From positions 1,391,001 through 1,455,000 of the forward strand of contig NZ_BSDR01000001.1 of assembly GCF_027925305.1 (NCBI RefSeq): DNA of 64,000 nucleotides. Direction: 5' to 3'. Below, in pieces: positions 5,055 to 57,204 of the stretch. A program made the position numbers and the translations under genes. Position 1 is the stretch's first letter. Every line of letters begins with the position of its first letter. Under the pieces are notes generated by a model, which was given only the letters and a program-made list of their open reading frames with translations, searched no databases and had not been told where the DNA came from. Origin of the DNA: Desulforhabdus amnigena. GTDB lineage: Bacteria; Desulfobacterota; Syntrophobacteria; Syntrophobacterales; Syntrophobacteraceae.

Positions 5055-5190
5055 TTAGGGAGTCGGCGGATTCTAATATCCCGTTATTCACCACGGAGAC
5101 ACGGAGGGCACCGAGAGGATTTTGGAATTCTGATGGAATTCCTTCGCAATCTCTGTGCCTTCGTGGCGAATGGGGATTTCAAGAGAGACT
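5055..5190. repeat. Dispersed inverted-repeat element, family B copy 1
   Basis: Resembles positions 60507-60652 along its length: both start TTAGGGAGT, continue GGCGGATTC and CACCACGGAGACACGGAGG, and end near GGGGATTTCAAGAG. The two ends are imperfect inverted repeats (CACCACGGAGACAC against the complement of its right arm). The right end stops where the IS630-type element begins. Confidence 0.7.
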
Positions 5191-5209
5191 TAGTACCCCA
5201 ACGCACTAA

Positions 5210-6346
5210 TTACGCGGCCATTTGCACGGATTTTGGAGCGAACTTGGCCACGAGCTTTGTTTTCGTATAGGTCCACTTTATGGGTTTTGGATGTCTGTTG
5301 AGCTCATCAAAGTAACCCATAAGCATTTGTGAAAGCTCCTTTTTGTCGTTGAAGTCGTTGGGAGTGAGTACATCCCTTGTAACCTTACTGAAGATGATCT
5401 CAACCTGATCGAGCCAACTGGCATATGTGGGAAGCCAGTAGATACGAACATTAAAAGAAAGGTTGAGAGAAGCAATCCATTTGCCCAGTTGTTTGGGTGC
5501 ATGCGTAGAGCCATTGTCCAGAATGAGATCAATAACCTTGAATCCCTTGACAATGGCTGAAGAAAAGAAACTCAGAAGAAAGGTTTTGAACTCCGCGAAG
5601 CGCTTGCGAGCGAAGGTACGGGCGAAGGTGATTCCATTGGCGACGATAAGAGCACAAAACAGCTGTAATGCTCCCATCCGTTTGTATCGGGATGCCACGT
5701 GAACGGGGTGTTCGGCTATGGCGGGTTTGGTCTCGTGAAGAGGTCTTCTTGCTTGAATGGAGGTCTTCTCATCGATACAAACGGAAGCTTCACCCTGCTG
5801 GAACAACTGGGGAGCGTTCTCATAGAGATCCAGGACTGGAGACGCTTTCTCAACGAATTTTGGATCAGGAGATTTTTGCCATAGATGATATTGCCAGGGT
5901 TTGATCTTGTCCTGTTTCAGCCAAAGACGAATAGTGCTCGGGGCAATGTGGCTGACGATTCCTTTTTCTTTGGCGACTTGACAAAGCTTCTCTCCAGACC
6001 AGCGTTGCCATGGCTTGCCATGATCACACGGTTTCGAACAGGCCAACAAGGTGATCTGAGCCCTCACGGCAGAAGGATGCTTTCTTGGGGCTCCGGGTCG
6101 GGGGTGGTTTTTGAGGCTACCTTCATTGACCCATCTGTTGCGGAACTTCTTAACGGTGGATGGCCTGCATCCGACTTCATCAGCGATCTGCCGGATGCTC
6201 CATTCCGGGTGCTCATGCGATAGGAGGAGGATACGAGCCCTTACAACCTCCGCATAGGGTTTTGTGTAGCTCACTCTCAGATGTTTCAATACTTTCCGTT
6301 TCTCTGGAGGAATGTAGATGCAGTATTTGTGTTGAGGTCCAGGCAT
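5210..6346 (-). CDS. IS630-family transposase
   Basis: A 378-residue DDE transposase. The N-terminal helix-turn-helix region contains SIRQIADEVGCRPSTVKKF (about residues 50-70). The catalytic core shows CIDEKT (first Asp, about residue 190), LILDNGSTHAPKQL (second Asp, about residue 275) and WLDQVEIIFSKV (third acidic residue, about residue 315). The frame is complete, so the protein may be functional. The inserted IS5-type element lies only 60 bp upstream of the start and separates the gene from its outer terminal repeat. This could change expression and should impair excision of a simple element. Confidence 0.93.
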   Translation of the reverse strand: MPGPQHKYCIYIPPEKRKVLKHLRVSYTKPYAEVVRARILLLSHEHPEWSIRQIADEVGCRPSTVKKFRNRWVNEGSLKNHPRPGAPRKHPSAVRAQITLLACSKPCDHGKPWQRWSGEKLCQVAKEKGIVSHIAPSTIRLWLKQDKIKPWQYHLWQKSPDPKFVEKASPVLDLYENAPQLFQQGEASVCIDEKTSIQARRPLHETKPAIAEHPVHVASRYKRMGALQLFCALIVANGITFARTFARKRFAEFKTFLLSFFSSAIVKGFKVIDLILDNGSTHAPKQLGKWIASLNLSFNVRIYWLPTYASWLDQVEIIFSKVTRDVLTPNDFNDKKELSQMLMGYFDELNRHPKPIKWTYTKTKLVAKFAPKSVQMAA

Positions 6347-43716: not shown

Positions 43717-44667
43717 ATGACAAGAATTCTTCCAGAGCTTCCCCCCGGCGCCAAATGTACTCGATGCCGCAACCGTGCAACTATCCGTCTGCCCAATCAT
43801 CACACACTCTTCTGTCCCGAATGTTTCTGTCGCTTTTTTGAAACCGCCGTTCGTCGCGCCATGAAAAAGCACGGAATCCTCCCGGACGTCCCCCTCCTCG
43901 TGGCAGTCTCGGGGGGGAAAGACTCCTTGGCCCTATGGGAAGTACTCAATGAACTGGGTTACACAACCAAAGGGCTTCACATCGATCTTGGAATCGACGG
44001 CTTTTCGCAACCTTCGGAAGAAGCGGTAGACCGTTTTGCCAGCGAACGAAACCTCACCTGGACCCGGTACTCGCTCAAGGAGATCTTTGGATATGATCTC
44101 CTTGAAATCAAAAAGCGGTCCAGAAGAAAAATCTGCTCCCTTTGCGGTCTGCTCAAACGACAACTCCTCAACAGACTGACCATAAAAGAGGGATTCCAAG
44201 TCCTTGCAACCGGCCACAATCTCGACGACGAGGCGGGGCGCCTTCTGGGAAACCTGGTGCGTCACCGCAATGAATATCTCGACAAGCAATCCCCTCTCCT
44301 CCCTTCGACACATCCCAGGCTTCCCGCTAAATTCAAACCCCTCTACCGGGTAGATGCCCATGAGATCCGGACCTACTGCAAACTGAAAAAAATTTTTCCT
44401 CTGGAGGCAAAATGCCCCCTTTCCCGGGGAGCCACCAGCCACATTTTCAAGGAAGCTCTCAATTTCCTTGAAACAAAAATGCCGGGCACCAAACGGCAGT
44501 TTCTCTATTCCTACCTCGACCGCAAGAAAACACCCCTCGACAGCCTACCCTTCGGAACCTGCAAGCTGTGCGGAGAACCCACATACGATGATCTTTGCAG
44601 TGTTTGCAACCTGGCAAGACATCTGGAAGAAAATTCAAAAAAAGAATTAGATTCGGGGCCGGCTTGA
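43717..44667 (+). CDS. TtuA/Ncs6-like tRNA 2-thiolation ATP pyrophosphatase
   Basis: A 316-residue PP-loop protein, likely thiolating a tRNA uridine. An N-terminal zinc finger (C14, C17, C33, C36) precedes the PP-loop SGGKDS (65-70). C140 and C143 (KICSLCG) and C233 (AKCPLSRG) are spaced like the ligands of the [4Fe-4S] cluster in TtuA. ATGHNLDDEA follows the family pattern. A C-terminal zinc finger has C282, C285, C294 and C297. A sulfur-carrier partner (TtuB-like) is not visible. MnmA-type alternatives lack the two terminal zinc fingers. Confidence 0.85.
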   Translation: MTRILPELPPGAKCTRCRNRATIRLPNHHTLFCPECFCRFFETAVRRAMKKHGILPDVPLLVAVSGGKDSLALWEVLNELGYTTKGLHIDLGIDGFSQPSEEAVDRFASERNLTWTRYSLKEIFGYDLLEIKKRSRRKICSLCGLLKRQLLNRLTIKEGFQVLATGHNLDDEAGRLLGNLVRHRNEYLDKQSPLLPSTHPRLPAKFKPLYRVDAHEIRTYCKLKKIFPLEAKCPLSRGATSHIFKEALNFLETKMPGTKRQFLYSYLDRKKTPLDSLPFGTCKLCGEPTYDDLCSVCNLARHLEENSKKELDSGPA

Positions 44668-44708
44668 GAAACAAGGGGGAAGCGAGTGAAAAGCTTCCCG
44701 TCTCTCAA
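44663..44708. terminator. Bidirectional hairpin terminator between TtuA-like gene and lon
   Basis: The inner stem GGGAAGC/GCTTCCC and outer stem TTGAGA/TCTCAA are separated by an internal loop. It lies directly between the convergent stop codons. A-rich sequence follows on the plus side; no long T-run is present. Confidence 0.55.
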
Positions 44709-44746
44709 AAAGAACTTGGCTGCCGCTGCAAGTATACCCATCCCGT

Positions 44747-47113
44747 TCATTTTCCTCCCACAGCCTGAGGCGGAACCAGGGCAATTTCAAGGGCGTCCAT
44801 GATGATCTGCAGCTCGTGGAAAACCATCCCTTCTCGCAGGTGTTGGGGAATTTCCATCAGGTCTTTGGCATTGGCCTGAGGAATCATCACTTCCCGGATG
44901 CCTGCTCGACGGGCAGCCAGCATTTTTTCCTTGATTCCCCCAACCGGCAACACATCCCCACGCAGAGTGATCTCCCCCGTCATGGCCACGTTTCGACGCA
45001 CTTCCCGCTGGCTCATAAGAGACGCAAGCGCTACCACCATGGCGACTCCGGCCGACGGACCGTCTTTGGGAATCCCCCCCGCCGGGACATGCACGTGGAT
45101 GTCCGACTTTTCAAACTTTTCTTCATCTATCCCCAAATCGGAAGCATGGGCCCGAATATAGGTCAAAGCCGCCGCCACCGATTCCTTCATCACCGCTCCC
45201 AACTGACCCGTGAGAGTCAAATTCCCGCGCCCGTGGGTACGGAGGGCCTCGACAAAAATGAGTTCGCCTCCACTTGGAGTCCAGGCAAGTCCCGTGCTGA
45301 TCCCTGGTCCCCAGGAGCGTGTGGCCGTTTCTGGAAGGAACCGGACAGGCCCGAGAATTTCCTTGCAGTTTTCCGGACGAATGGTGACGGGTCCATCCTT
45401 GCCTTCGGCAATATCCTTGGCAACAAAGCGGCAAAGAGCCGCAAGATTTCTATCCAGATTCCGTACGCCGGCTTCCCTCGTATAAGAATGAATGATCTCG
45501 AGGATGGTCTCATCAGGAATAATCACCTGGTCCGTCTTGAGACCGTGGTTTTCAATCTGCCGAACGACCAGGAACTTCCTGGCGATCTGCAGCTTTTCTT
45601 CCTCCGTGTATCCGGGCAATTCGATCACCTCCATTCGATCCCGCAAAGCGGAAGGAATGGGATCCAACATATTGGCGGTCGCCACAAAAATGATTCTGGA
45701 CAGATCAAAAGGAACCCCCAGGTAATGATCCGAAAAAGTGGAGTTTTGTTCGGGGTCCAGTACTTCCAGCAAAGCGGACGAAGGATCGCCGCGAAAATCC
45801 ATGCCCAATTTGTCGATTTCATCCAGCATGAAGACAGGATTGTTGCTCCCAATCCGACGCAACCCTTGAATGATCCGCCCTGGGAGTGCTCCAACATAGG
45901 TTCGCCGGTGTCCTCGCAGTTCGGCCTCATCCCGCAGGCCTCCCAAAGATATGCGCAGAAATTTCCGGCCCAAGCTCCTGGCAATGGACTGCCCCAGCGA
46001 AGTCTTGCCCACCCCGGGGGGGCCCACGAAACAGAGGATCGGCCCTTTCAAGTCTTTCTTGAGCTGAAGGACAGCCAGGTATTCCAATATGCGCCGTTTG
46101 ACTTTTTCCAGATCAAAGTGGTCTTCATCCAGGATCTTCGCAGCTTCTCGAACATCCAGAGTATCTTGAGTGGAAACTTTCCAGGGCAATTCCAGGAGCC
46201 AATCCAGGTAGTTCCTGGAAACAGTATATTCCGCTGCCGCAGGTGAAATGCGTCCGAGTCGTTCGATTTCCTTTTCCGCAGCAGTCAGGACCTCCGGAGG
46301 CATTTGAACTTGATCGAGTCTATCCAGGAGTTCCTGGATTTCCGGGTTCTTCTCCTCACTTTCCCCCAGTTCTCTCTTGATGACCTGAAGTTGCTCACGC
46401 AGAAAGTATTCACGCTGGCGTCTATCCATGCCCGCTTTGACTTTCTCCTGTATTTTTTGAACCAGTTCCAACTGATCGAGTTGGCGGGTCAAATAAAAGG
46501 TGGTGCGCTCCAAAGCGGTGTAGATATCGGGCAATTCCAGAATGGTCTGTCTCTCGGCCACTGTGAGAGAAAGATTTGCAGCAACGACATAGACCAGTTG
46601 AATAGGACGATCCAGGTTCAGAGACAGCGTGGCCAGTTCGGTCGGCAGGTTGGCCATTTCCACGAGCTTTTCGAACTGCGTGCGAAGATTCAAAACCATC
46701 GCTTCGATTTCTGGGCTGGTGCTCGTATCCTCAGGCAGAACTTCGATGCGGGCATCAAAATAATTGCCCTTCGCCCGGATATCGCTCAACCTCACCTTCT
46801 GTTTGGCTCGAACAATGATCTGATAAGACCCATCTGTTTGCTTCACGAGTTTCATGACATTCCCGATGGTGCCCACATCATAAAAATCCGATGGACCCGG
46901 GTTTTCCACCTGCCTGTCACGCTGCGCCACAACCACCATGGAGAGCTCACCCGGCACCACATCGTCAATCAATTTGATAGACCCCGCCCTTTCCACATGA
47001 AGCGGCATCACCAATTCGGGGTAGAGCACCATATTTCTCAGGGGAAGAATGGGAAGACGTTCAGGCACCACCTCTTCGCTTTTATCTTTCACTTCCAGCA
47101 GTTCTTCTGACAT
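44747..47113 (-). CDS. lon: ATP-dependent protease Lon
   Basis: A cytosolic AAA+ serine protease that degrades misfolded and regulatory proteins. Of about 788 residues, domains in order are the N-terminal LAN domain (about 18-210, [19 protein letters not shown]), a helical middle, an AAA+ module with Walker [16 protein letters not shown] (about 360) and Walker [11 protein letters not shown], and the S16 protease domain with the catalytic Ser in [11 protein letters not shown] and Lys in [11 protein letters not shown]. It follows hsp20 after 33 nt, so the holding chaperone and the protease are probably expressed together. An in-frame GTG 6 nt upstream is an alternative start. Confidence 0.96.
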
Positions 47114-47146
47114 TGCCACCTCGCTTTCCTCATCCTGGAAGATCGA

Positions 47147-47587
47147 TCAATCGTGCTGCAAAGGAACCCGAACGGAAATCGACTTTTGGAACTTGGGCAA
47201 TACAATCTCCAGGAATCCATTCCGATAGGAAGATTGTGCGCCGTCGGAATCCAGGCGCACGGGAAAATGGAACGTCCTTTGAAACTTGCCGAAATCAATT
47301 TCGATCTGGTGGATGCGGGTGCGGGCATTGACTTGAGGACGCTTGCGTTCTCCCCTCAAATGGAGAAGGTTGCCTTCAACCACCAGCTGGACGCATGACG
47401 GTTCAATACCCGCCAAATCAATAAAAACATGATAAGCCTCCTGGGTTTCATGGATGTCTGCAGACGGCATCCAATTGCTTTTGCTGGAAAAACAGCTAGA
47501 TAATCGATATCGTGACAACTGGCTGAGCCACTTGCGCAACCGTTGAGGCATTTCATCCATTTCGTCATTCAAATCATAAAGAGACAT
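47147..47587 (-). CDS. Small heat-shock protein, Hsp20/alpha-crystallin family
   Basis: An ATP-independent holding chaperone of 146 residues. The alpha-crystallin domain spans about 40-135, beginning PSADIHETQEAYHVFIDLAGI and ending with the family A-x-x-x-NGFLEIVLPK motif (SSYRNGFLEIVLPKF). The C-terminal ISVRVPL resembles the I-x-V/I oligomerisation motif. A GAGAGGGAA site precedes the ATG. No CIRCE or clear sigma-32-type promoter was recognised. lon follows 33 nt downstream. Confidence 0.92.
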   Translation of the reverse strand: MSLYDLNDEMDEMPQRLRKWLSQLSRYRLSSCFSSKSNWMPSADIHETQEAYHVFIDLAGIEPSCVQLVVEGNLLHLRGERKRPQVNARTRIHQIEIDFGKFQRTFHFPVRLDSDGAQSSYRNGFLEIVLPKFQKSISVRVPLQHD

Positions 47588-47660
47588 GGCTTCCCTCTCA
47601 CAAGTTTAAGAACGGGGACTTCTTGCTACGATATTGCAAACGGTTATGAATTGGACTCTA

Positions 47661-47718
47661 CTGTCACTTCGACCGAAGGGAGAAATCTTGAGATCCCTCA
47701 CATTCGTTCGGGACGACA
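47661..47718. repeat. Short imperfect inverted-repeat element (family D)
   Basis: TGTCACTTCGACCGAAGGGAG on the left is loosely complementary to the right arm (GAGATCCCTCAC, then TTCGTTCGGGACGACA). A single copy is seen in the window. Similar palindromic units are common in other genomes (general knowledge, not checked). Confidence 0.4.
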
Positions 47719-47821
47719 AAAGCCCAAATTCAGACCGTGCGCGGTATACAACGAGACTTCCAGTGCAGAGGGGACAAAGGCGGAGCGTTGCCCACCGGAA
47801 GGAACCCCCATGGCTCGCATT

Positions 47822-47960
47822 AACTCCCATGACCGGGACGATCACAACGGAAAATAAAAAAAGGCAAAGAGACACAAGGCAATAAGGAAAGCGGGAAACG
47901 CTCTTGAAAAGCGATGTTATCATGAGCCATGAACCATGAGCCTTTTTTCTTATAAAAAGG
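47822..47960 (+). repeat. Dispersed repeat, family C copy 2
   Basis: Starts AACTCCCATGACCGGGACG, continues CACAACGGAAAATAAAAAAAGG and GGAAAGCGGGA, then CTTGAAAAGCGAT and ATGAACCATGAGCCTTTTTTC. The first half matches 18122-18196 (minus strand) and the whole matches 53944-54071. It lies upstream of hsp20 but points the other way. Confidence 0.7.
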
Positions 47961-48015
47961 GAGGCACCACTTGTTTATACTCTGCACGGATAAAATTAAG
48001 ACTTTTGATCGTCAT

Positions 48016-48034
48016 GCAGGGGTAGCACCCCTGC
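48016..48034 (-). terminator. Perfect small hairpin downstream of DUF486 gene
   Basis: GCAGGGGT-AGC-ACCCCTGC, an 8-bp perfect stem about 130 nt after the DUF486 stop. No T-run follows on either strand, so a terminator role is only possible. Confidence 0.3.
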
Positions 48035-48162
48035 ACAACATAATTATCAACCATTATGAGCATAAAAGGAAATGGGGAAGGATGCTTGGATTTAATCTTT
48101 CATTGAATTGAAGAGCAAGGCATTTTACCTGGAAAAAAGAGATATTCCCTCTCTGTTCTCCA

Positions 48163-48513
48163 TCATGGAGATTCAGGCATCCCTCCTCGAAACATGAAAT
48201 AAGCCGCTCCAATTAAACAAAGTCCAGCCCATAAGTAATCCAGCTTCAGAGGTTGTTTCATGTAAAAAAACGCAAACATGGGGAAAATGCACATCGTGAT
48301 CATTTCCTGCATCACTTTCAACTGCCCGATATTGTAGTAACGGGATCCCATGCGATTGGCGGGAACCTGCAGAGTGTATTCAAAAAAAGCGATCCCCCAG
48401 CTCATCAGAATGACAAAATAGAGAGGTTTACCGCTCATATTTTTCAAATGTCCATACCAGGCAAAAGTCATGAACAGATTCGACAGGATCAATAAGAAAA
48501 TAGGCTTTAACAT
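48163..48513 (-). CDS. DUF486 family small membrane protein (DMT-like)
   Basis: A 116-residue protein with four hydrophobic segments at about 4-22, 32-48, 68-86 and 93-110, matching DUF486 proteins, which are small multidrug-resistance-like membrane proteins of unknown transport activity. Characteristic stretches are LSNLFMTFAWYGHLKN and FEYTLQVPANRMG. It lies 76 nt downstream of the GNAT gene and may be the last member of the aminomutase/ligase cluster. A role as exporter or importer of the cluster's product is conceivable but not shown. Confidence 0.8.
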   Translation of the reverse strand: MLKPIFLLILSNLFMTFAWYGHLKNMSGKPLYFVILMSWGIAFFEYTLQVPANRMGSRYYNIGQLKVMQEMITMCIFPMFAFFYMKQPLKLDYLWAGLCLIGAAYFMFRGGMPESP

Positions 48514-48589
48514 CCGTCATTACCTTATCAAAAAATATACGTTTTTTACAGAAAAGAAATAGACCCAGGGGAAAACAGCTTCATGGATT

Positions 48590-49084
48590 TCAGGCGATCG
48601 TTTTGACATAAACGATCTTGCTGTCGCCCGGAGCATAAAAATCCTTAAAAATCGCCTCGTCCCTGTACCCGCACTTCCGGTAGAAGGCCCGGGTCGGCTC
48701 GTATTGGCCCCGTGACGATGTTTCAATATAAATGCGGCTTCCTCCCAATGCGCGAATCTCTTTCTCCGTCCTCTCGAGAAGTTCTCTTCCCAAACCCAGG
48801 AATCTGAAATCGTCGTGCACCGCGATCCAGTACAGATCGTAGCTCGACTCCGTACAAGGAACGGGTCCGTAACACGTATAGCCCACAACCTCTCTCTCAT
48901 GTTCGGCAAACAGAAAAAAGTAACCGCTGGCCTTTCCGCTTTTCAGGCGTTCCGCCACCAATTCCATCGCGACCGCTGTTTCTTCAGGCGAAAAGAAACC
49001 CGATGAACGGACGACGCTGTGAACGCCTTCAAGATCGGATTCCATAACCTCTTCCCGATAAACCACCGCAGGGATATTGTTCAT
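48590..49084 (-). CDS. GNAT-family N-acetyltransferase of the aminomutase/ATP-grasp cluster
   Basis: About 164 residues. Motif A is IAVHDDFRFLGLGRELLERTEKEI, with the acetyl-CoA loop FLGLGRE (about residue 97). TRAFYRKCGYRDEAIFKDFY gives motif B and the C-terminal strand. It is much shorter than AblB, the known beta-lysine acetyltransferase, so it is not an obvious orthologue. It follows the two ATP-grasp ligase genes after about 150 nt holding a repeat element. A product of the upstream enzymes is the natural guess for its substrate. A GTG at 49096 is an alternative start. Confidence 0.78.
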   Translation of the reverse strand: MNNIPAVVYREEVMESDLEGVHSVVRSSGFFSPEETAVAMELVAERLKSGKASGYFFLFAEHEREVVGYTCYGPVPCTESSYDLYWIAVHDDFRFLGLGRELLERTEKEIRALGGSRIYIETSSRGQYEPTRAFYRKCGYRDEAIFKDFYAPGDSKIVYVKTIA

Positions 49085-49111
49085 AAAGGAATCCACACCA
49101 CCACTGTATTC

Positions 49112-49218
49112 AGAGCCTATCCAAAAAACTCATCATTAGTCTGCCCCCCTTTTATTCCCCCTCAAGGGAGAGCTGAGGGGAGTGTTTCCAGACACTGCGA
49201 ACTTTTGGGCAGGTTCTT
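49112..49218. repeat. Dispersed element, family A-related copy within the aminomutase cluster
   Basis: The left end AGAGCCTATCCAAAAA matches copy 2 (ACCTATCCAAAAA). The complement of the right end reads AAGAACCTGCCCAAAA. The centre has CCCCCTCAAGGG in place of the TCGA palindrome. It lies between the second ATP-grasp gene and the GNAT gene. Confidence 0.6.
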
Positions 49219-49238
49219 ACAGCCTTTCGAACCGATTG

Positions 49239-50231
49239 TTAATGCAGGAATATTCCTGAATCCTGCAAAATTTTCCCGACAACCTGTGAATAATCCATAC
49301 CGGCCCGCACCGATGCGGCCGCAAATCCCGCATCGGGAGAGAGGCAGGGGTTTGCGTTGACTTCAAGAACCCAGGGATTTCCGGCCGGGTCCACCCGGAA
49401 ATCCACTCGAGCATAGCCACGCAGACCAAAGAGAGACCAACACGCTTTCGCCATCTCCTCGAGCCGGCAAATCAGAGGTGCATCCTCTCTGGAGAAGTCA
49501 AAACATCGAGAAGTGTTCAAATATTCGAACGATTCCTCTTCCCATTTGGCCCGGTAGCCCACGACCTTGACCCTGTCCGAAGGAAAACCGTCGAATCGTA
49601 TTTCTGCGATCGGAAGGACCTTGGGATCCTTCTCACCTCCCAACAAGGAAAGGTTGAATTCCCTCCCCTCGATGTATGCCTCAGTGAAACAATCGCCGCC
49701 CAGCCGCTCCTGTCGTCGTTTCATCTCTTCAAGCAAGAATCCCGGATCTTCTGCAAAAACCACCGAATCTTCGTCCAATCCAACGGATGCATGTTCCCAG
49801 ACGGACTTGATGATATATCGCCCCCCTTCCAGGTGCTCCAGGTTCTCCAGGCCAGCCGGTACGAACCATTTGGGCGTTGGAATGTGCGCTCCATGAAGAA
49901 GGTTCTTGGCCAAAAGCTTGTTCGAACTCAAATAAAGAGCGTCTGTTCTTGCACCCGTATAAATGATCCCCAGGTGATCCAGAACCGACGGGGCAATATG
50001 AATCAATCGCCCCGTCCCTCCTATCGTTTCTACAAGGTTGAAGACAAAAGCCGGCTGAATCCTTTTCAATCGATCCGCCACACTTTGAAGGTTCAATGCA
50101 CAAGGAACCGCTAGAGGCTCAAATCCCAAATCCTGCAGAGCATGGGTGACCGCTTCCACCTGGATCAGAACGTCTTCTTCGTCCTTACCTGCTCCCATGG
50201 AAACTTCACTATGTAAAACAACAACCTTCAT
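49239..50231 (-). CDS. ATP-grasp ligase, D-Ala-D-Ala ligase-like, copy B
   Basis: 330 residues with an ATP-grasp fold. The N-terminal domain includes PAFVFNLVETIGGTGRLIHIAPSVLDHLGIIYTG (about residues 60-93; Ddl-like NLVE in place of N-x-LHG). The central domain has YIIKSVWEHASVGLD (phosphate-binding Lys and Ser), and EAYIEGREFNLSLL follows. The Mg site is VDFRVDPAGNPWVLEVNANPCLSPDAG (D-x-R, EVNANP). The substitution at the first D-Ala subsite means it need not make D-Ala-D-Ala; another carboxylate-amine ligation is likely. It lies 29 nt after copy A. Confidence 0.83.
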   Translation of the reverse strand: MKVVVLHSEVSMGAGKDEEDVLIQVEAVTHALQDLGFEPLAVPCALNLQSVADRLKRIQPAFVFNLVETIGGTGRLIHIAPSVLDHLGIIYTGARTDALYLSSNKLLAKNLLHGAHIPTPKWFVPAGLENLEHLEGGRYIIKSVWEHASVGLDEDSVVFAEDPGFLLEEMKRRQERLGGDCFTEAYIEGREFNLSLLGGEKDPKVLPIAEIRFDGFPSDRVKVVGYRAKWEEESFEYLNTSRCFDFSREDAPLICRLEEMAKACWSLFGLRGYARVDFRVDPAGNPWVLEVNANPCLSPDAGFAAASVRAGMDYSQVVGKILQDSGIFLH

Positions 50232-50260
50232 ACTTTCTCACTCTGTACGGAAAACCGCCC

Positions 50261-51235
50261 CTATCTCAATCTTTTCAAAGCCGAATCCATAATCCCCCGG
50301 ATCAATTCACCGTAACCGATCCCTGCCAGCCCGCAGAGAATGGGCAGGTCCGAATCAACGGGGTGTAAACCGGCAAGGGGATTCACTTCAATGAAATTCG
50401 GCACTCCATGAACATCGGCGCGAAGATCGATACGCCCTGCATCGCGGCATCCCAGGCCTCTCCAGGCTACAAGCGCCACTTCTCCCGCTTTTTCAGCCAC
50501 GGAGTCGTTTACCAGGCGATAAGAGACCCGTTCTTCGTAGTTCTTCTTGGTTTCATATGAGTAGGTCCCATCATGCGCATGTCCCGTGAACATCACTTCC
50601 ATCACGGCAATGACAGCACTCTCTTTTCCTGTGCCCCTGATCCCCACCGTGAATTCACGCCCCGGCAGGAAAGCCTCTACCAGTGCGGGCTGCCCGAACC
50701 GTTGCAGAATTTCCATGCAGGCCCTGTTCATTTCGCTCCTGGACGTGACTCTTGATCCAGCCGTGATGCCCTTTCCCGTGCCTTCGGCCACAGGCTTTGC
50801 AAACAACGGAAAGGGAAGATCTATTCTTTCCAGGTCTTCCTCTTTTTCCACCACGGCAAAATCCGGAGTGGGAATTCCCAGGTCACGGATCACATGCTTG
50901 GTCATTCCCTTATGAAGCGTGAGAGCCAAAATCAGCGGATCGGAAAAAGTATAGGGAATCTCATAGGCATCCAACAGGCAAGGAATCTGCGCCTCACGCG
51001 CATATCCCCGAAGTCCTTCTGCGATATTGAAAACCAGGTCCCATCGATCCCCTGCCAGAAGCCTTTGCATGAGATCCTTCACATGCCCGATGCGGTCTGT
51101 TTCATATCCCAGATCCTTCAGAGCCTTTTCGATGGCTGCGATGGTGTCGGGATGATCGAATTCCGCCGTATCCTCTTCGCTGTACCCCTCAGCCAGGTAA
51201 GCTTCCCGAAGGTCGAATGTGATTCCTATCTTCAC
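50261..51235 (-). CDS. ATP-grasp ligase, D-Ala-D-Ala ligase-like, copy A
   Basis: 324 residues from a GTG at 51235 that overlaps the stop of the aminomutase gene (GTGA), implying tight translational coupling. The N-terminal domain is VKIGITFDLREAYLAEGYS and WDLVFNIAEGLRGYAREAQIP (Ddl-like but NIAEG). PLFAKPVAEGTGKGI has the ATP-binding Lys. LVEAFLPGREFTVGI and the Mg-site IDLRADVHGVPNFIEVNPLAGLHP complete the family. It is clearly different from copy B, so the two probably act on different substrates or in sequence. No mur or fts genes are nearby, which argues against a cell-wall D-Ala ligase. Confidence 0.83.
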   Translation of the reverse strand: MKIGITFDLREAYLAEGYSEEDTAEFDHPDTIAAIEKALKDLGYETDRIGHVKDLMQRLLAGDRWDLVFNIAEGLRGYAREAQIPCLLDAYEIPYTFSDPLILALTLHKGMTKHVIRDLGIPTPDFAVVEKEEDLERIDLPFPLFAKPVAEGTGKGITAGSRVTSRSEMNRACMEILQRFGQPALVEAFLPGREFTVGIRGTGKESAVIAVMEVMFTGHAHDGTYSYETKKNYEERVSYRLVNDSVAEKAGEVALVAWRGLGCRDAGRIDLRADVHGVPNFIEVNPLAGLHPVDSDLPILCGLAGIGYGELIRGIMDSALKRLR

Positions 51236-52644
51236 AGGACCGGCTCCATATCTCCACTGGACGACTCGCAAAAGGTCTCACAGCTTTTTCTTTCAACCGG
51301 GAAATTCCCGATACTTCCGCCCGGGTCCGGATACCGGTAAATATTTCCCTGGTAATTCCTCAGCAGCAGGTCATCTCCATCGCGGCCAACGACATATTCG
51401 GGGAGCAGCGGGATCTTGCCGCCGCCTGCCGGAGCGTCAATCACATAGGCCGGTACGGCATATCCCGTCGTGAATCCTCGCAATCCATGGATGATTTCCA
51501 GGCCTTTTTCCACGGGGGTACGAAAATGCGAAGACCCAGGGATGGGATCACATTGATAGAGATAATAAGGTTTGACACGCATCTTGAGTAAACCATGGAC
51601 AAGGTGTTTCATGGTTTCCACACTGTCGTTCACCCCTGCGAGTAAAACCGTCTGGCTTCCCAATGGGATTCCTGCATCCGCCAACCGGGTGCAGGCATGG
51701 TTCACCTCAGGGGTCAACTCATCCGGATGGGTAAAGTGAATGCTCATCCACAAAGGATGAAAGCGTTTGAGCATTCGAGTGAGCGAAGGGGTCACACGCT
51801 GAGGCAATACCACGGGCATCTTGGTCCCTATACGGATAAATTCCACATGCGGGATCCTTCTCAGCCTGGATAAAAGCCATTCCAGGCGGTCATTCGAGAG
51901 GGTCAGCGGGTCCCCTCCCGAGAGAAGCACGTCTCGAATGGCGGGGGTTCCCTCGATGTACGCAATGGCCCTTTCCCACTCCTTGACGTTGAAATGCGTT
52001 CCGTGACCGTTACCCACCATACGTGAACGGGTGCAGTAGCGGCAGTAAGTGGAACAATATCCCGTCACCAGGAACAGGACACGGTCCGGATACCGGTGAA
52101 CAATCCCTGGAACGGGACTGTCCTTTTCCTCTCCCAAAGGATCTTCCTCTTCCCCGTCCCTGTGGAAATATTCAGCAGCAACGGGAACCACGGTGCGCCT
52201 CAAAGGCTGCATGGGATCGGCGGCATCAAGCAGGCTCGCGTAATAGGGGGTAATAGCCAGAGGCAACAGGCCATTGGAATGTTCTATGGCGCTGCGCTCT
52301 TCACGGGAAAAGTCAATGATCCGTTCCAGCGCGTCCATATTCAGGATGCGGTTGCGCAACTGCCAATGCCAGTCATTCCATTCGTTCACGGAAACGCCGG
52401 GGAAAACGCGCTTGCGGAAAGCATCCGATTGGGGACTGCAGGTGAATCGAGCAGCGGCATTGAGATTCTTGGGCCTTAGACGATGCGGTTTTCTTGTCCT
52501 TGGAAGGAAAGAGGAAGGAAGAGCGGCGGTTTTTTGACCAAGCTCCGGTGTGGAAACAGGTCCAAATGCTGCTTCACCGCTTGGAGGTTCAGTATCTTCG
52601 TCGGGAGGTTCCGTTTCGTCTTCGATATATATCTTCTTTTCCAT
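51232..52644 (-). CDS. Lysine 2,3-aminomutase-family radical SAM/PLP enzyme with N-terminal extension
   Basis: 470 residues. Cluster Cys are C197, C201 and C204 (GYCSTYCRYCTRSR). The PLP Lys is K410 (IDAPAGGGKIPLLP). Asp residues at 366 (CDPIPGSSHF) and 403 (VIDAP) stand at the same spacing from K410 as the two substrate-amine-binding Asp of clostridial lysine 2,3-aminomutase, so lysine to beta-lysine chemistry is plausible. EpmB-type relatives lack this pattern. The core begins near residue 88 (VNEWNDWHWQLRNRI); the first ~75 residues are an acidic then basic extension of unknown role. Its stop overlaps the next gene's GTG. Confidence 0.88.
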   Translation of the reverse strand: MEKKIYIEDETEPPDEDTEPPSGEAAFGPVSTPELGQKTAALPSSFLPRTRKPHRLRPKNLNAAARFTCSPQSDAFRKRVFPGVSVNEWNDWHWQLRNRILNMDALERIIDFSREERSAIEHSNGLLPLAITPYYASLLDAADPMQPLRRTVVPVAAEYFHRDGEEEDPLGEEKDSPVPGIVHRYPDRVLFLVTGYCSTYCRYCTRSRMVGNGHGTHFNVKEWERAIAYIEGTPAIRDVLLSGGDPLTLSNDRLEWLLSRLRRIPHVEFIRIGTKMPVVLPQRVTPSLTRMLKRFHPLWMSIHFTHPDELTPEVNHACTRLADAGIPLGSQTVLLAGVNDSVETMKHLVHGLLKMRVKPYYLYQCDPIPGSSHFRTPVEKGLEIIHGLRGFTTGYAVPAYVIDAPAGGGKIPLLPEYVVGRDGDDLLLRNYQGNIYRYPDPGGSIGNFPVERKSCETFCESSSGDMEPVL

Positions 52645-52969
52645 TTGAATGGCTCCTTTTTATTCATGATCAAGATGAAGGAAATCTTCACTTTCACTTG
52701 TGCAAAATTTTCCAGATCTTTTCTTTGATGCCGTTGTCTTCTTTTAGATTCATATGCCAATTCACCCCGAGCCTGCACCAATTTTACGGCCGGAAGCGGC
52801 ATCCAGAAACTTTAATCCCTCCGCCTTCAGCCTTAATGGCTGAAGAGGGAGGGAAGATCAGGCTCTGCAAACCGCTGCAGTTCAGGTGCAATCCGGATGA
52901 AATGCCGAAGTGCACCTCTTACTGTGCCGGAGCGAAGCAGGGTTTCCCCTTCTTCGCTTCACAGCCGCA
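52645..52969. other. Hairpin-rich non-coding region upstream of the aminomutase gene
   Basis: No gene seen. Three inverted repeats occur: CCCTCC..CTTCAGCC-TTAAT-GGCTGAAG..GGAGGG (52817-52853), AGGTGCA/TGCACCT (about 52885-52917) and GAGCGAAG/CTTCGCTTC (about 52931-52967). On the minus strand they lie between the small secreted protein gene and the aminomutase gene. They may be a terminator without T-run, a structured leader, or one more dispersed element. An AAAAGGAG ribosome-binding site lies just before 52644. Confidence 0.5.
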
Positions 52970-53263
52970 TTATTCTTGAATTTCTTCAAAGGATTTTACG
53001 TCGATAAAATCATCCTTTTCCGTTTCGGTAATAATGCCGGTTGCTTCTATCATTTTACCGACCATTTTCGACAGATCTGCACCCTTAACGATGTAGTCCC
53101 CATCTTCGCCCTCGATCACAATCCCTTTATCGGTCTTGGCGACCACACCGGCAATGGTTTCCTGCTCATCTGCAGCAAAACCTTTATGCACACATACGGT
53201 TGAAATCATAGAAAAGACAAAAGCACACAGCAAAAGACTCAGAAGAGTTTTATGCAACTTCAT
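52970..53263 (-). CDS. Small exported protein, possibly OB-fold
   Basis: 97 residues with a clear signal peptide (MKLHKTLLSLLLCAFVFSMI to GFAADE, cleavage about residue 31). The mature ~65-residue acidic domain has alternating short strands (TIAGVVAKTDKGIVIEGEDGDYIVKG, then MIEATGIITETEKDDFIDVKSFEEI). The pattern resembles small periplasmic OB-fold proteins, but I cannot name a family. Expected location is the periplasm. It is about 325 bp upstream of the aminomutase gene on the same strand. Confidence 0.7.
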   Translation of the reverse strand: MKLHKTLLSLLLCAFVFSMISTVCVHKGFAADEQETIAGVVAKTDKGIVIEGEDGDYIVKGADLSKMVGKMIEATGIITETEKDDFIDVKSFEEIQE

Positions 53264-53940
53264 TTCTTTAGTTCCTCATCACCAAGGGGTTTTTCTGCTT
53301 GATCAATAAACATCTTCTTTCAGAAACATTCGAGTCGATTCAAAACATCAGCACCCAGTACCGTCCGGCTTGCACTGAGATATTATCGGAGGATACCGCC
53401 TCGCTCTTTCATTGTCGACAACAACGTGGACAGGGTCGCGAGGCCCCTTTTCTTGAACTGTGGCAACTCCTTCGCTGTGATGAACCACCTCCTTTGATTG
53501 CCAAATTTCATGGACAACCGACGTTAAAGGTCACTTCCCAATAGAAGGACCAATAAACCTGCCTGTTCAATTTTCTCCTGCTACAATCCGGCGTATGGTT
53601 GATAGCAAATTCAGGCAATAAAGTATATAGTTATTTGATAGGATTCAAGACGCAAGGCACATTTTTTTAACTATTGAATATTTCAACATTATTTTACACA
53701 TTGGAGGAGACATCGGACCCCGTTCACGGAGCTGTCGGAAAGGGAATTGTACCTTGCATGACAACTTGCATCCAACAGGCGTTCAAGGTTATGAAATGAC
53801 AATATCCTTTAGATTTTCAGCACTGGTCGACCACTGCGGGCATAGTTCTTCGCAAGGCGCTTGCCTTCGTATACCACTTGTGCCAAAAACTTGTATGAAA
53901 AAATCGAGTTGCGGTGTCATATACTGACTATATGGTTTTA
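53264..53940. other. Long non-coding stretch, nothing recognised
   Basis: About 680 bp with no frame resembling a known protein; a possible 81-codon frame at 53299-53544 lacks a ribosome-binding site and family features. No RNA gene, terminator or repeat with a second copy in the window was seen before the family C element at 53944. Confidence 0.5.
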
Positions 53941-53943
53941 TTA

Positions 53944-54071
53944 CCCCCCATGACCGGAGCGGTCACAACAAAAGATGAAAAAGGGCAAAAAGACGCAAAG
54001 GGGGAGATAGTGTGAAACTCTTTTGAAAAGCGATATCGGCATGAACCATGAGCCTTTTTTCATATAAAATG
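53944..54071 (+). repeat. Dispersed repeat, family C copy 3
   Basis: CCCATGACCGGAGCGGTCACAAC, in parts, then AAAAAGGGCAAAAAGACGCAAAGG, in parts, then TTTTGAAAAGCGAT and ATGAACCATGAGCCTTTTTTC. It matches 47822-47960 along its full length. It lies about 110 bp upstream of the glucan phosphorylase gene in the same orientation. Confidence 0.7.
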
Positions 54072-54181
54072 TTAAAGGGGTTTTCCCCTGTGATATAAGA
54101 GAAAGCGGAGCTCAGGTTTGCAAATGACCACAAGTCAGAAAAAAATGAGGAGAAGGCAGACATGAAGAAAGGGGAGGCTCG

Positions 54182-55798
54182 ATGAAAGTCGCTTATTTCA
54201 GTATGGAAATCGGCCTGAATGAAAACATGCCCACTTACAGTGGAGGCTTGGGGATCCTTGCGGGAGACCATATCAAATCGGCAGCCGATCTGAATATCCC
54301 CATTGTTGCAGTCACACTCCTTTATAAACGGGGTTATTTCATCCAAAACATCAATCCTCTGGGGCAGCAGGAAGAGATGTACCCCTATTTTGACCCACGG
54401 GCTTTCATGGAACCCCTTCCCTTCAAGGTGACCATCAAAATTGAGGGCCGCGACGTCCATATCGGGGTCTGGAAGTACAATCAAATCGGCATGCATGGAC
54501 GGGTTCCCGTATATTTTCTAGATACGGATCTTCCCATCAATACGGCGGACGATCGCCTCATCACGCAATTCCTTTATGGAGGCGATCAACATACGCGCAT
54601 CTGCCAGGAGGCGGTGTTGGGGATAGGCGGCTACCTCGCCCTGAAGAAACTCGAACGCAATATTACCACTTATCATATGAATGAAGGGCATGCCGTTTTT
54701 CTCACCCTGGCCATGCTTCGAGATGCCAACGGAAACGAAGAGAGTGTGAGAGAGCAGTGTGTTTTTACGACGCACACTCCTGTTCCTGCGGGCCATGACC
54801 GCTTTTCCTATGGTATGGCGGAAAAGGTTCTGGGGGCCTACCTGCCAGCCAATATTCGCGCTCTGGCAGGCAAAGAAGAATTGAACACCACGGTTCTCGC
54901 TCTCAATCTTTCCCGCGCGGCCAATGGAGTGAGTGAACTCCACGGTGAGATTTCCAGGCAAATGTTTCCGGGTTTCAACATCGGCCACATCACCAATGGA
55001 GTGCATCATTTGAGTTGGACGGGGCCCGAGTTTCAAGAGCTCTTCGACAGGCACCTGCCCAACTGGCGCATACAGCCCCAGGCGCTGAGCGGAGCGAGAA
55101 ACATTCCCGATGATGAGATCAGGGAAGCCAAGAAGAAGGCTAAAAAACGGCTCATAAGCTACATCAATTCCGTCTCCGGTGTGGGATTCACGGACGAATT
55201 TCTCACCATCTGCTTTGCCAGGAGAGCGGCTGCGTACAAACGCGCCACCCTTCTTTTCACTGACCTGGAATATCTCTTCAACCTCTCCTTCGATCGGGCG
55301 CAGTTCATTTTTGCGGGAAAAGCCCACCCACAGGATGGCGCGGGAAAAGAGCTGATCAAGGAAATCGTGAATACGGGAAAGCAGTACGAGGACAAAATAC
55401 GCCTGGTCTTCCTACCCAATTACAACATCTGGTCCGCCGCCCTCATGACTCAGGGAACGGATGTCTGGCTGAACACTCCTCGCCGCCCCCGCGAAGCCAG
55501 TGGAACAAGCGGGATGAAAGTGTGCTTCAATGGTGGAGTGAACATGAGCGTTCTGGACGGCTGGTGGCGCGAGGGATGCCGCAACCGGCTCAACGGCTGG
55601 GCGATAGGCGATGATGAAGATCAAGCCGATGAAGAGGCCGCAGCGGATCTTTACCAGGATCTCGACGACATGGTGACTACTTACTATTCCAAGCCCCAGC
55701 AGTGGTTGTCCATCATGAAGAACTCCATCGCGGATCTCACCCCCGTATTCAACACGCATCGCATGGTTCTGGATTACGTGCACAAGTACTATATCTGA
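54182..55798 (+). CDS. Alpha-glucan phosphorylase, short form (GT35)
   Basis: Releases glucose-1-phosphate from glycogen or maltodextrin using PLP phosphate. The 538-residue protein starts MKVAYFSMEIGLNENMPTYSGGLGILAGDH, a region that lies roughly 100 residues inside longer bacterial phosphorylases, so the N-terminal DUF3417-type domain is absent. YHMNEGHAVFL, THTPVPAGHDRF, HITNGVHHLSW and the PLP-Lys motif REASGTSGMKVCFNGG (about residue 445) are present. A GGGGAGG site precedes the ATG, supporting this start. It is monocistronic and followed by two hairpin terminators. Confidence 0.92.
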   Translation: MKVAYFSMEIGLNENMPTYSGGLGILAGDHIKSAADLNIPIVAVTLLYKRGYFIQNINPLGQQEEMYPYFDPRAFMEPLPFKVTIKIEGRDVHIGVWKYNQIGMHGRVPVYFLDTDLPINTADDRLITQFLYGGDQHTRICQEAVLGIGGYLALKKLERNITTYHMNEGHAVFLTLAMLRDANGNEESVREQCVFTTHTPVPAGHDRFSYGMAEKVLGAYLPANIRALAGKEELNTTVLALNLSRAANGVSELHGEISRQMFPGFNIGHITNGVHHLSWTGPEFQELFDRHLPNWRIQPQALSGARNIPDDEIREAKKKAKKRLISYINSVSGVGFTDEFLTICFARRAAAYKRATLLFTDLEYLFNLSFDRAQFIFAGKAHPQDGAGKELIKEIVNTGKQYEDKIRLVFLPNYNIWSAALMTQGTDVWLNTPRRPREASGTSGMKVCFNGGVNMSVLDGWWREGCRNRLNGWAIGDDEDQADEEAAADLYQDLDDMVTTYYSKPQQWLSIMKNSIADLTPVFNTHRMVLDYVHKYYI

Positions 55799-55800
55799 CA

Positions 55801-55837
55801 GGTGGGATCTCCCGCCTTTGGCAAGGCGGGAGCCACC
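55801..55837 (+). terminator. Hairpin after the glucan phosphorylase gene
   Basis: GGTGG..CTCCCGCCTT - TGGC - AAGGCGGGAG.CCACC: a 10-bp perfect inner stem plus a 5-bp outer stem. No T-run follows directly. Confidence 0.6.
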
Positions 55838-55861
55838 CGGTCAACTATCCCCTATACGAAC

Positions 55862-55906
55862 AAAAAAAGGGCTGCAGAGTAAGGAATCTCTGTCAGCTCC
55901 TTTTTT
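55862..55906. terminator. Bidirectional intrinsic terminator between glgP-type gene and argJ
   Basis: A7-GG-g-CTGCAGAG, 8-nt loop, CTCTG(t)CAGC(t)CC-T6. The stem has two single-base bulges, with an A-run on one side and a T-run on the other, so it can serve both convergent transcripts. Confidence 0.85.
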
Positions 55907-55929
55907 GAATCTTATTTTACAGCAAAATA

Positions 55930-57204
55930 TCACGAACGGTACGAGGCGTTGATCTTTACATAGTCATAGGAAAAATCGCACGTGAAAGCGGTGAACTGAG
56001 AGTCCCCCATCCCCAGATCCAGATGCACCCGCAATTCTTTCTGCTTGAATACGGCTGTCGCTTTTTCCTCAATGTCGGACCCCGTCAGGGGAGTCCCCGC
56101 CTTGAAGACGCAGACCCGGTCAAAAAAGAGGGTGACCTTTTCCGGCTGCAAAGGGACCCCTGCACGCCCCGCGGCGGCAACGATGCGGCCCCAGTTGGCG
56201 TCTTCGCCGAAAAACGCCGTCTTGACCAAAGGAGAGTTGGCAACGGTAAAAGCGACGCTCCTGGCGCTCGCCGCATCGGAAGCTCCCGTCACCAAAATTT
56301 CGATGAATTTGGTGGCCCCTTCCCCATCCAGTACGATTTTTTTGGCCAGCTCCGAAAGTACGGCGCTCAAAGCTTCACCAAAAAGCCGGCTTTCGGGACT
56401 CATTCTATCCGCCAGGACGGCATTTCCGGCATGTCCGCCGGCAAGAACCAACAGCGTGTCGTTGGTACTCGTATCCCCGTCCACCGTGATGCTGTTGAAA
56501 GAGCGATCCGCTCCCCAATGCACCCAGTAGTTCAGAACTTGCGGGTCAACAGCGGCATCCGTGCATACAAAAGCAAGAAGCGTAGCCATGTTGGGAGCGA
56601 TCATGCCCGACCCCTTGGCCACCCCGCCGATGGTAACGGTGCGCCCGCCGATTTGAATCCGGGTGCTCGCCAGTTTCGGGACGGTATCCGTCGTCATGAT
56701 GGCTTCGGCGACGGCGCCCCATCTATCGGGGCGCAACCCTTTGACCAGGGCCGGCATACTCTTCTGAACCGGTTCCAGAAGCACCTGAGGACCGATGACT
56801 CCGGTGGAAGAGATGAGAATATCCCCGGGCGGCGCATTCAAAGCTTCTCCGGCCATTCGGGCCATTTCCCCGGCACGTTTGAACCCTTCTTCTCCCGTGC
56901 AGGCGTTGGCAATTCCCGCATTGACGAGGATGCCTTTTGCCCGGGAAGAATCCAGACACCGCCTGCACCACTCCACCGGTGCGGCACAAAAACGATTGGT
57001 GGTGAATACTCCGGCCGCGACCGCACCCTCCTGCGGTTCCGCCACAATCAGGGCCAGATCGAGTCGATTACGGTAACGCATGCCGGATTGCACGGCGGAA
57101 ACCTGAAATCCTGGAACGACAAACGGCTGACTACTTACCGCAACATTTTTTATATTTTTTGCCACTTCCGCAGGGGCATGGGTCATTTCGTCCAACTTTG
57201 GCAT
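55930..57204 (-). CDS. argJ: Glutamate N-acetyltransferase / amino-acid acetyltransferase
   Basis: Transfers acetyl from N-acetylornithine to glutamate in arginine synthesis. The 424-residue precursor should cleave itself before the nucleophilic Thr in [18 protein letters not shown] (about residue 218). [24 protein letters not shown] and the C-terminal [10 protein letters not shown] and [18 protein letters not shown] are family features. The ATG at 57204 lies 74 nt inside the secA 3' end; ATG 57186 or GTG 57165 are alternatives, also within secA. An N-acetylglutamate-synthase-like gene lies just beyond secA, so arginine synthesis is a shared theme. Confidence 0.93.

Follow-up and report, generated by a model that had tools for sequence, protein, structure and literature searches.

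A conserved aminomutase, ATP-grasp ligase and acetyltransferase cassette in Desulforhabdus amnigena and its possible role in the synthesis of beta-lysine amides

Introduction

What is made by a lysine 2,3-aminomutase-like enzyme whose gene is followed on the same strand by two different ATP-grasp ligase genes and an acetyltransferase gene? The question is raised by a locus of Desulforhabdus amnigena, the genome of which is a single contig of 4.54 Mb, and more precisely by a stretch of 64,000 nucleotides of contig NZ_BSDR01000001.1 (positions 1,391,001 to 1,455,000), here called the window, to which all coordinates refer unless a locus number is given. Five minus-strand open reading frames (ORFs) follow one another in the order given below, where AG1 and AG2 denote the first and the second ATP-grasp ligase.

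51232..52644, minus strand: KamA (P0001), 470 aa, lysine 2,3-aminomutase-like radical SAM (S-adenosylmethionine)/PLP (pyridoxal phosphate) enzyme; Pfam LAM_C and Radical_SAM
50261..51235, minus strand: AG1 (P0002), 324 aa, GTG start, Ddl-fold ATP-grasp ligase; Pfam Dala_Dala_lig_C
49239..50231, minus strand: AG2 (P0003), 330 aa, a second, distinct Ddl-fold ATP-grasp ligase; Pfam Dala_Dala_lig_C
48590..49096, minus strand: GNAT (P0004), acetyltransferase; Pfam Acetyltransf_1; best solved relative 2r7h (E 9.9e-45)
48163..48513, minus strand: DMT_6 (P0005), small membrane protein of DUF486, now Pfam DMT_6 PF04342; possible exporter

The GTG start of AG1 overlaps the KamA stop as GTGA, and gaps of 29 nt, 142 nt and 76 nt separate AG1 from AG2, AG2 from GNAT and GNAT from DMT_6. 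This arrangement of five genes on one strand, with the overlap and the 29-nt gap, had been described in an earlier note on this DNA and is confirmed by the ORF coordinates and Pfam. KamA, AG1, AG2 and GNAT form a conserved cassette, and the answer favoured here, as somewhat the more probable one, is that it encodes a pathway to an N-acetylated product that contains beta-lysine, either a small amide or a short peptide.

Conservation of the cassette

Three sets of loci, numbered with an L, were compared. The order set held 39 genomes, from which 17 loci were read; the 80 named loci were the best 80 of 559 confirmed stretches and so are biased towards close relatives; the phylum set held 297 genomes, 104 of them with an AG1 match at E 1e-60, and from these 104 a first 40 loci (39 genomes; 20 close and 20 divergent) and then 12 more were picked by hand. 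The sets share contigs (L041=L107, L042=L115, L043=L111, L103=L183, L104=L184, L118=L185, L112=L186, L110=L187 and L124=L193) and the counts must therefore not be summed. As most carriers are metagenome-assembled genomes (MAGs), single taxon labels may be wrong.

AG1 was matched at E < 1e-90 in 16 of the 39 order genomes, the next genome reaching only 1.1e-20, and the same 16 genomes have a KamA of at least 560 bits to P0001, the other 23 having neither a KamA of this type nor AG1. The gene order KamA-AG1-AG2-GNAT is kept across the 17 order loci except at contig ends, in L048, where AG2 is reduced to a fragment, and in L050, an additional locus where of these genes only KamA and one that is AG1-like are present. 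Among the named loci with AG1, KamA was found in 73 of 75, AG2 in 64 of 71, and GNAT, like the full set of four genes, in 48 of 55, these denominators being the loci with a long enough flank. The earlier note had suggested a search for a conserved aminomutase-ligase-ligase unit lacking wall genes, and the outcome of that search is strongly positive, since the four-gene order recurs widely. Its cluster of five genes stands for four of them; DMT_6, the DUF486 protein, is an occasional member and not part of the core, being near the cassette in six of the 80 named, three of the 40 phylum and one of the 17 order loci. Its usual place is between AG2 and GNAT, but in the window and L037 it comes after GNAT.

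The titles of the carriers among the 80 named loci are mostly deltaproteobacterial. Four-gene loci are also labelled Acidobacteria, Calditrichaceae, Phycisphaerae, Ignavibacteria, Bacteroidales and Krumholzibacteriia, and partial loci, some of them cut by contig ends, are labelled WOR-3, Spirochaetes, Sumerlaeota, Neomarinimicrobiota and Thermoguttaceae, those labelled WOR-3 having KamA and AG1 only. A search of viral contigs with AG1 gave no match.

The aminomutase

KamA aligns with the lysine 2,3-aminomutase 2a5h at E 1.3e-136, leaving an N-terminal tail of about 75 residues outside the alignment. Residues D366 and D403 align to 2a5h residues 293 and 330 and, together with Cys197, Cys201, Cys204 and Lys410, are invariant in all 32 aligned KamAs, in agreement with the earlier note, which has both aspartates kept at the spacing used to hold lysine; we take the cysteine triad to be that of radical SAM enzymes, Lys410 to be the PLP lysine and the aspartate pair to be the residues that hold lysine. 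P0001 passes the KamA subfamily model TIGR00238 with 349 bits (cut-off 199).

It may be asked whether such an enzyme simply serves the beta-lysylation of elongation factor P (EF-P), its neighbours being incidental. In 36 of the 39 order genomes EpmA scores above its cut-off, and no clear EpmB was identified in the window genome, the second, short KamA of which scores 215 bits against the EpmB cut-off of 369. P0001 is itself below that cut-off, however (252.7 bits against the 369.3 of TIGR03821), and EpmA is over its cut-off regardless of whether the cassette is present, whereas the cassette KamA occurs in only 16 of the 39 genomes and always with AG1. It is the short KamA, found in 37 of the 39 with or without the cassette, that better matches the spread of EpmA, and a role of the cassette KamA in EF-P modification is very improbable.

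KamA also occurs unlinked to the cassette. In five of 14 such loci (L254-L257 and L266) Lon and Hsp20 genes lie beside it, as they do beside the cassette in the window (44747-47587), and in 11 of the 14 (L254-L263 and L266) a MerR-like regulator, its family judged by eye, is nearby and is possibly a regulator of beta-lysine synthesis. Lon was considered as a partner of the cassette and rejected as not recurrent, being near it in one of 17 order, three of 80 named and one of 40 phylum loci.

The two ligases

The AlphaFold models of AG1 and AG2 have a predicted local distance difference test (pLDDT) score of 88.9 and 93.4 respectively, and for both the best Foldseek hits are Ddl, with which they share the fold, the ATP/Mg residues and the C-terminal domain. 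Nevertheless, by curated cut-offs neither is classed as a D-Ala ligase, AG1 scoring 138 and AG2 108 bits against the 243 required of Ddl, and the genome has a separate Ddl with 355 bits. The earlier note had likewise held that these are not ordinary D-Ala-D-Ala ligases and that their motifs deviate, and the motifs VFNLVE in AG2 and VFNIAEG in AG1 are indeed present. In the second-substrate site, to which Lys, Gly and the Ser-Leu loop belong in Ddl, AG1 keeps the Lys and Gly in all 22 aligned rows and, in 19 of them, the Ser, and since these hold the carboxylate of the second substrate in Ddl, its second substrate is probably an amino acid. AG2 keeps the Lys in 19 of 19 rows, but the Ser has become Ala in 16 (Ser in two, Gly in one) and the Leu has become Gly in all 19, and this altered loop suggests a second substrate of another kind, perhaps an amine lacking an alpha-carboxylate.

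A reading of AG1 and AG2 as ordinary or wall-related D-Ala-type ligases could appeal to the shared fold and Dala_Dala_lig_C domain, and also to 2r7h, the solved relative of the GNAT, which is named a putative D-alanine N-acetyltransferase; as a guess, that name may have been taken from Ddl-like neighbours. The bit scores, the separate Ddl and the loss of the Ddl loop from AG2 all speak against it, as does the fact that the neighbours identified in the window (a PP-loop ATPase, Lon, Hsp20, a 97-aa protein, a glycogen-phosphorylase-type protein and ArgJ) include no wall gene, which agrees with what the earlier note had said of the surroundings. We therefore give this reading hardly any weight.

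Two unusual relatives of AG1 were also seen. In L168 (5269-7299) and L169 (5218-7248) two AG1-like domains in tandem occupy one frame, with KamA, AG2 and GNAT not nearby, and in L050 (6694-9168, plus strand) an AG1-like domain is followed in frame by some 500 residues that, as judged by eye, resemble another ATP-grasp enzyme, with KamA nearby.

Partner pairs within the cassette

Both gene fusions and evolutionary distances divide the cassette into two pairs, KamA with AG1 and AG2 with GNAT. KamA and AG1 form a single frame of 875 codons in L035, and one-frame fusions of AG2 with GNAT are seen at ten different loci (L036, L039, L042, which is L115, L044, L046, L082, L163, L194, L199 and L201); AG1 and AG2 are joined in one frame in L129. 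Pairwise distances across the 52 loci with all four proteins correlate at 0.79 for KamA with AG1 and 0.78 for AG2 with GNAT, the other four protein pairs lying between 0.50 and 0.64 and the maximum under permutation being 0.23. The fusions thus point to a ligation that is coupled to the aminomutase on one side and to acetylation on the other.

This pairing bears on the possibility that the main product is the osmolyte N-acetyl-beta-lysine, formed by KamA and GNAT alone while the ligases serve something else. The clustering of the two genes is reminiscent of ablA-ablB as described for methanogens in PMC1224877. However, KamA is paired with AG1 and GNAT with AG2, the GNAT gave no match to AblB (TIGR03827) at E 0.001, AblB is over its cut-off in none of the 39 order genomes (weak matches only in 17), and many carriers are named as digester or freshwater lineages. 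Such a product is accordingly judged improbable.

Links to polyamine metabolism

An accessory protein of about 590 aa found in some cassettes has a GNAT domain in its N-terminal part and, behind it, a domain of the histone-deacetylase type, the closest solved relatives of which are acetylpolyamine amidohydrolases (PDB 9gkz, E 8.7e-75, and 6phr); these differ in that the accessory protein has the N-terminal GNAT and sits inside the cassette. This GNAT-deacetylase fusion is present within the cassette in 13 of the 80 named and seven of the 40 phylum loci, and in L105 and L175 it is itself fused to the cassette GNAT. It is not in the window, and since the three deacetylase-family matches of the window genome are confined to two frames of 452 and 255 aa, that genome seems to be without it.

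A second link comes from 16 divergent loci that have AG1 and AG2 without a linked KamA (L173, L177, L178, L180 and L242-L253). A pyruvoyl arginine decarboxylase gene was found in 14 of these, agmatinase in 11 and a deoxyhypusine-synthase-like gene in seven, the gene families having been checked for L173, L177 and L178, and of the two loci without the decarboxylase one, L251, stops a short way upstream of AG1. In the KamA-linked cassette of L190 the gene next after GNAT is of the agmatinase family. A third ATP-grasp gene, RimK-like and placed between AG1 and arginine decarboxylase, was found in L177 alone (5134-6057, plus strand).

It is thus possible, though clearly less probable than the beta-lysine pathway, that the cassette carries out polyamine conjugation, the ligases attaching amino acids or beta-lysine to putrescine, agmatine or a similar amine, the GNAT acetylating and the deacetylase fusion recycling the product, with beta-lysine as one of several diamine inputs. 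The accessory fusion, the polyamine genes of the unlinked loci, the L190 arrangement and the loss of the Ddl pattern from the second-substrate loop of AG2 would all fit this. On the other hand, none of the 17 order, 80 named and 20 close phylum loci yielded an arginine decarboxylase, nor did the close loci without a linked KamA (L182 and L197), and the window has no homologue of the polyamine genes queried. Moreover, the 16 loci represent six families, one of which supplies half of the loci, and are not independent. It had been considered that polyamine synthesis replaces KamA in the arginine decarboxylase loci, but this was dropped since all those genomes have KamA elsewhere: a KamA of at least 570 bits was present in 19 of 19 genomes with AG1 and AG2 searched (three of which supplied query rows), linked or not, whereas in the other two of the 21 genomes searched, which have an AG1-like gene alone, the best KamA reached only 430 bits. 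KamA therefore accompanies AG1 and AG2 even when unlinked, and polyamine synthesis appears as an added partner in one branch.

The proposed pathway

The beta-lysine pathway builds on computed observations, namely the conserved cassette, co-occurrence, fusions, folds and kept catalytic residues. In a first step KamA would convert L-lysine to beta-lysine, as its family and residues suggest. AG1 would then activate a carboxylate with ATP and form a first amide bond involving beta-lysine, AG2 would form a second, and GNAT would acetylate a free amine. In some lineages the acetyltransferase/deacetylase fusion may make the acetylation reversible or remove a protecting acetyl group, and DMT_6, where present, may export the product. 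Many anaerobic bacteria share this gene set, the enzymes of which probably make beta-lysine, join it to other building blocks and cap the product with acetyl. The beta-lysine-containing, perhaps acetylated peptide proposed in the earlier note is borne out in part, by the conservation of the cassette and by the fusions of ligation with aminomutase and acetylation; the inclusion of DUF486 in its cluster is not.

A number of observations weigh against this pathway. All four genes were found in 17 of the 20 close phylum loci but in only nine of the 20 divergent ones, and AG2 is missing in seven of 71 and GNAT in seven of 55 named loci, the WOR-3-labelled loci included, so that the full pathway is not universal. 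The fusion of KamA with AG1 is known from one locus alone, where a sequencing error is possible. P0001 scores 495.6 bits against the cut-off of 525.4 of the AblA equivalog TIGR03820, about 30 bits short, and an amino acid other than lysine is therefore possible; by itself the aspartate pair does not decide against arginine.

A compatible solute, a polyamine-like cation and a signal are all conceivable as the product. The carrier names include Smithella and Syntrophus, mostly freshwater or digester organisms, which argues against a purely saline role. A role as a solute is nevertheless reasonable given the precedent of acetyl-beta-lysine, as outlined in passages of PMC1224877 and PMC3543383.

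The EPP motif

The N-terminal tail of the cassette KamA bears a recurrent pattern, E-(E/D)-x-E-P-P-(G/S), which in the window lies in the following region.

52579..52623, minus strand: EPP motif region, KamA tail residues 8-22, EDETEPPDEDTEPPS; EPP twice

EPP was found in the tails of 67 of 72 named cassette KamAs (L052-L131), against 4.8 expected by per-tail shuffling, and, where shuffling gave expectations of 1.9, 1.8 and 0.3 respectively, in 15 of 16 order, 19 of 29 phylum and five of 13 unlinked KamAs. These counts come from overlapping sets and do not include KamAs truncated on the 5' side by the end of a contig. Several tails without EPP have near variants (GPPS, KPPS, DPPG and EPLG). 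The motif was absent from the first 80 residues of 14 short order KamAs (0/14), but these have no comparable tail and shuffling is thus the better control. In three divergent loci (L175, L179 and L181) KamA is tail-less and EPPS stands instead in an N-terminal loop of AG1; the shift of EPP from one protein to another within the same pathway suggests that it has a common function, in docking or as a carrier. To go further and regard it as a mobile docking or carrier peptide by which both ligases assemble a widespread beta-lysine/polyamine conjugate, in the manner of an enzyme-borne amino-carrier protein, is a conjecture to which we attach very little probability.

Flanking and intergenic features

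A 97-aa protein without a Pfam match, probably secreted, is encoded upstream of KamA on the same strand (52970-53263, minus strand). It has homologues in seven of 17 order loci and stands directly upstream of KamA in the four loci mapped with it (L037, L038, L043 and L045). The gap between AG2 and GNAT (49097-49238) contains an inverted repeat, CCCCTCA...TGAGGGG, read by eye, which is possibly a terminator or a dispersed repeat. A scan of window positions 44000-57000 with Rfam gave no match at E 1 and, at gathering scores, nine cassette loci gave two tRNAs only; there is thus no known riboswitch in that region or in those loci.

Comparison with known systems

Annotated gene by gene, as an aminomutase, D-Ala ligases and an acetyltransferase, the cassette hides a pathway. 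Such an operon was not found in the literature searched, though a subscription paper may have mentioned it before, and the four-enzyme set, which occurs in sulfate reducers, in syntrophs and in MAGs bearing the labels of many other phyla, has no assigned product there. It predicts that beta-lysine amides exist as a class of compounds with a link to polyamine metabolism.

Three known systems offer points of comparison. In the N-acetylglutaminylglutamine amide (NAGGN) pathway an ATP-grasp ligase with a GNAT domain makes an acetylated dipeptide, with an asparagine-synthase-like enzyme as partner. The cassette resembles it in combining ATP-grasp ligation with a GNAT domain and differs in having KamA and a second ligase in place of the asparagine-synthase-like enzyme; no NAGGN model was among the matches of P0003 and P0004, and the recurrent neighbours of the 80 named loci were judged by eye on a single example of each. 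NAGGN is mentioned as a solute in PMC1224877. The AblA-AblB pathway to the osmolyte N-epsilon-acetyl-beta-lysine likewise clusters a lysine aminomutase with an acetyltransferase, but the cassette is without AblB as judged by the model, and its two ATP-grasp ligases, each paired with one enzyme, have no counterpart in AblA-AblB as outlined in passages of PMC1224877 and PMC3543383. The fungal E-64 pathway is, according to its abstract (PMC12568646), also independent of a non-ribosomal peptide synthetase (NRPS), with an ATP-grasp enzyme that adds an amino acid and a second enzyme that adds an amine; it differs in its epoxysuccinate warhead and in that the second enzyme is an amide bond synthetase, and the abstract names neither an aminomutase nor acetylation. 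From its sequences the cassette would belong with such systems, as a kind of amide synthesis that dispenses with NRPS by means of ATP-grasp ligases and a modified amino acid, and it offers a compact enzyme set for NRPS-free amide synthesis.

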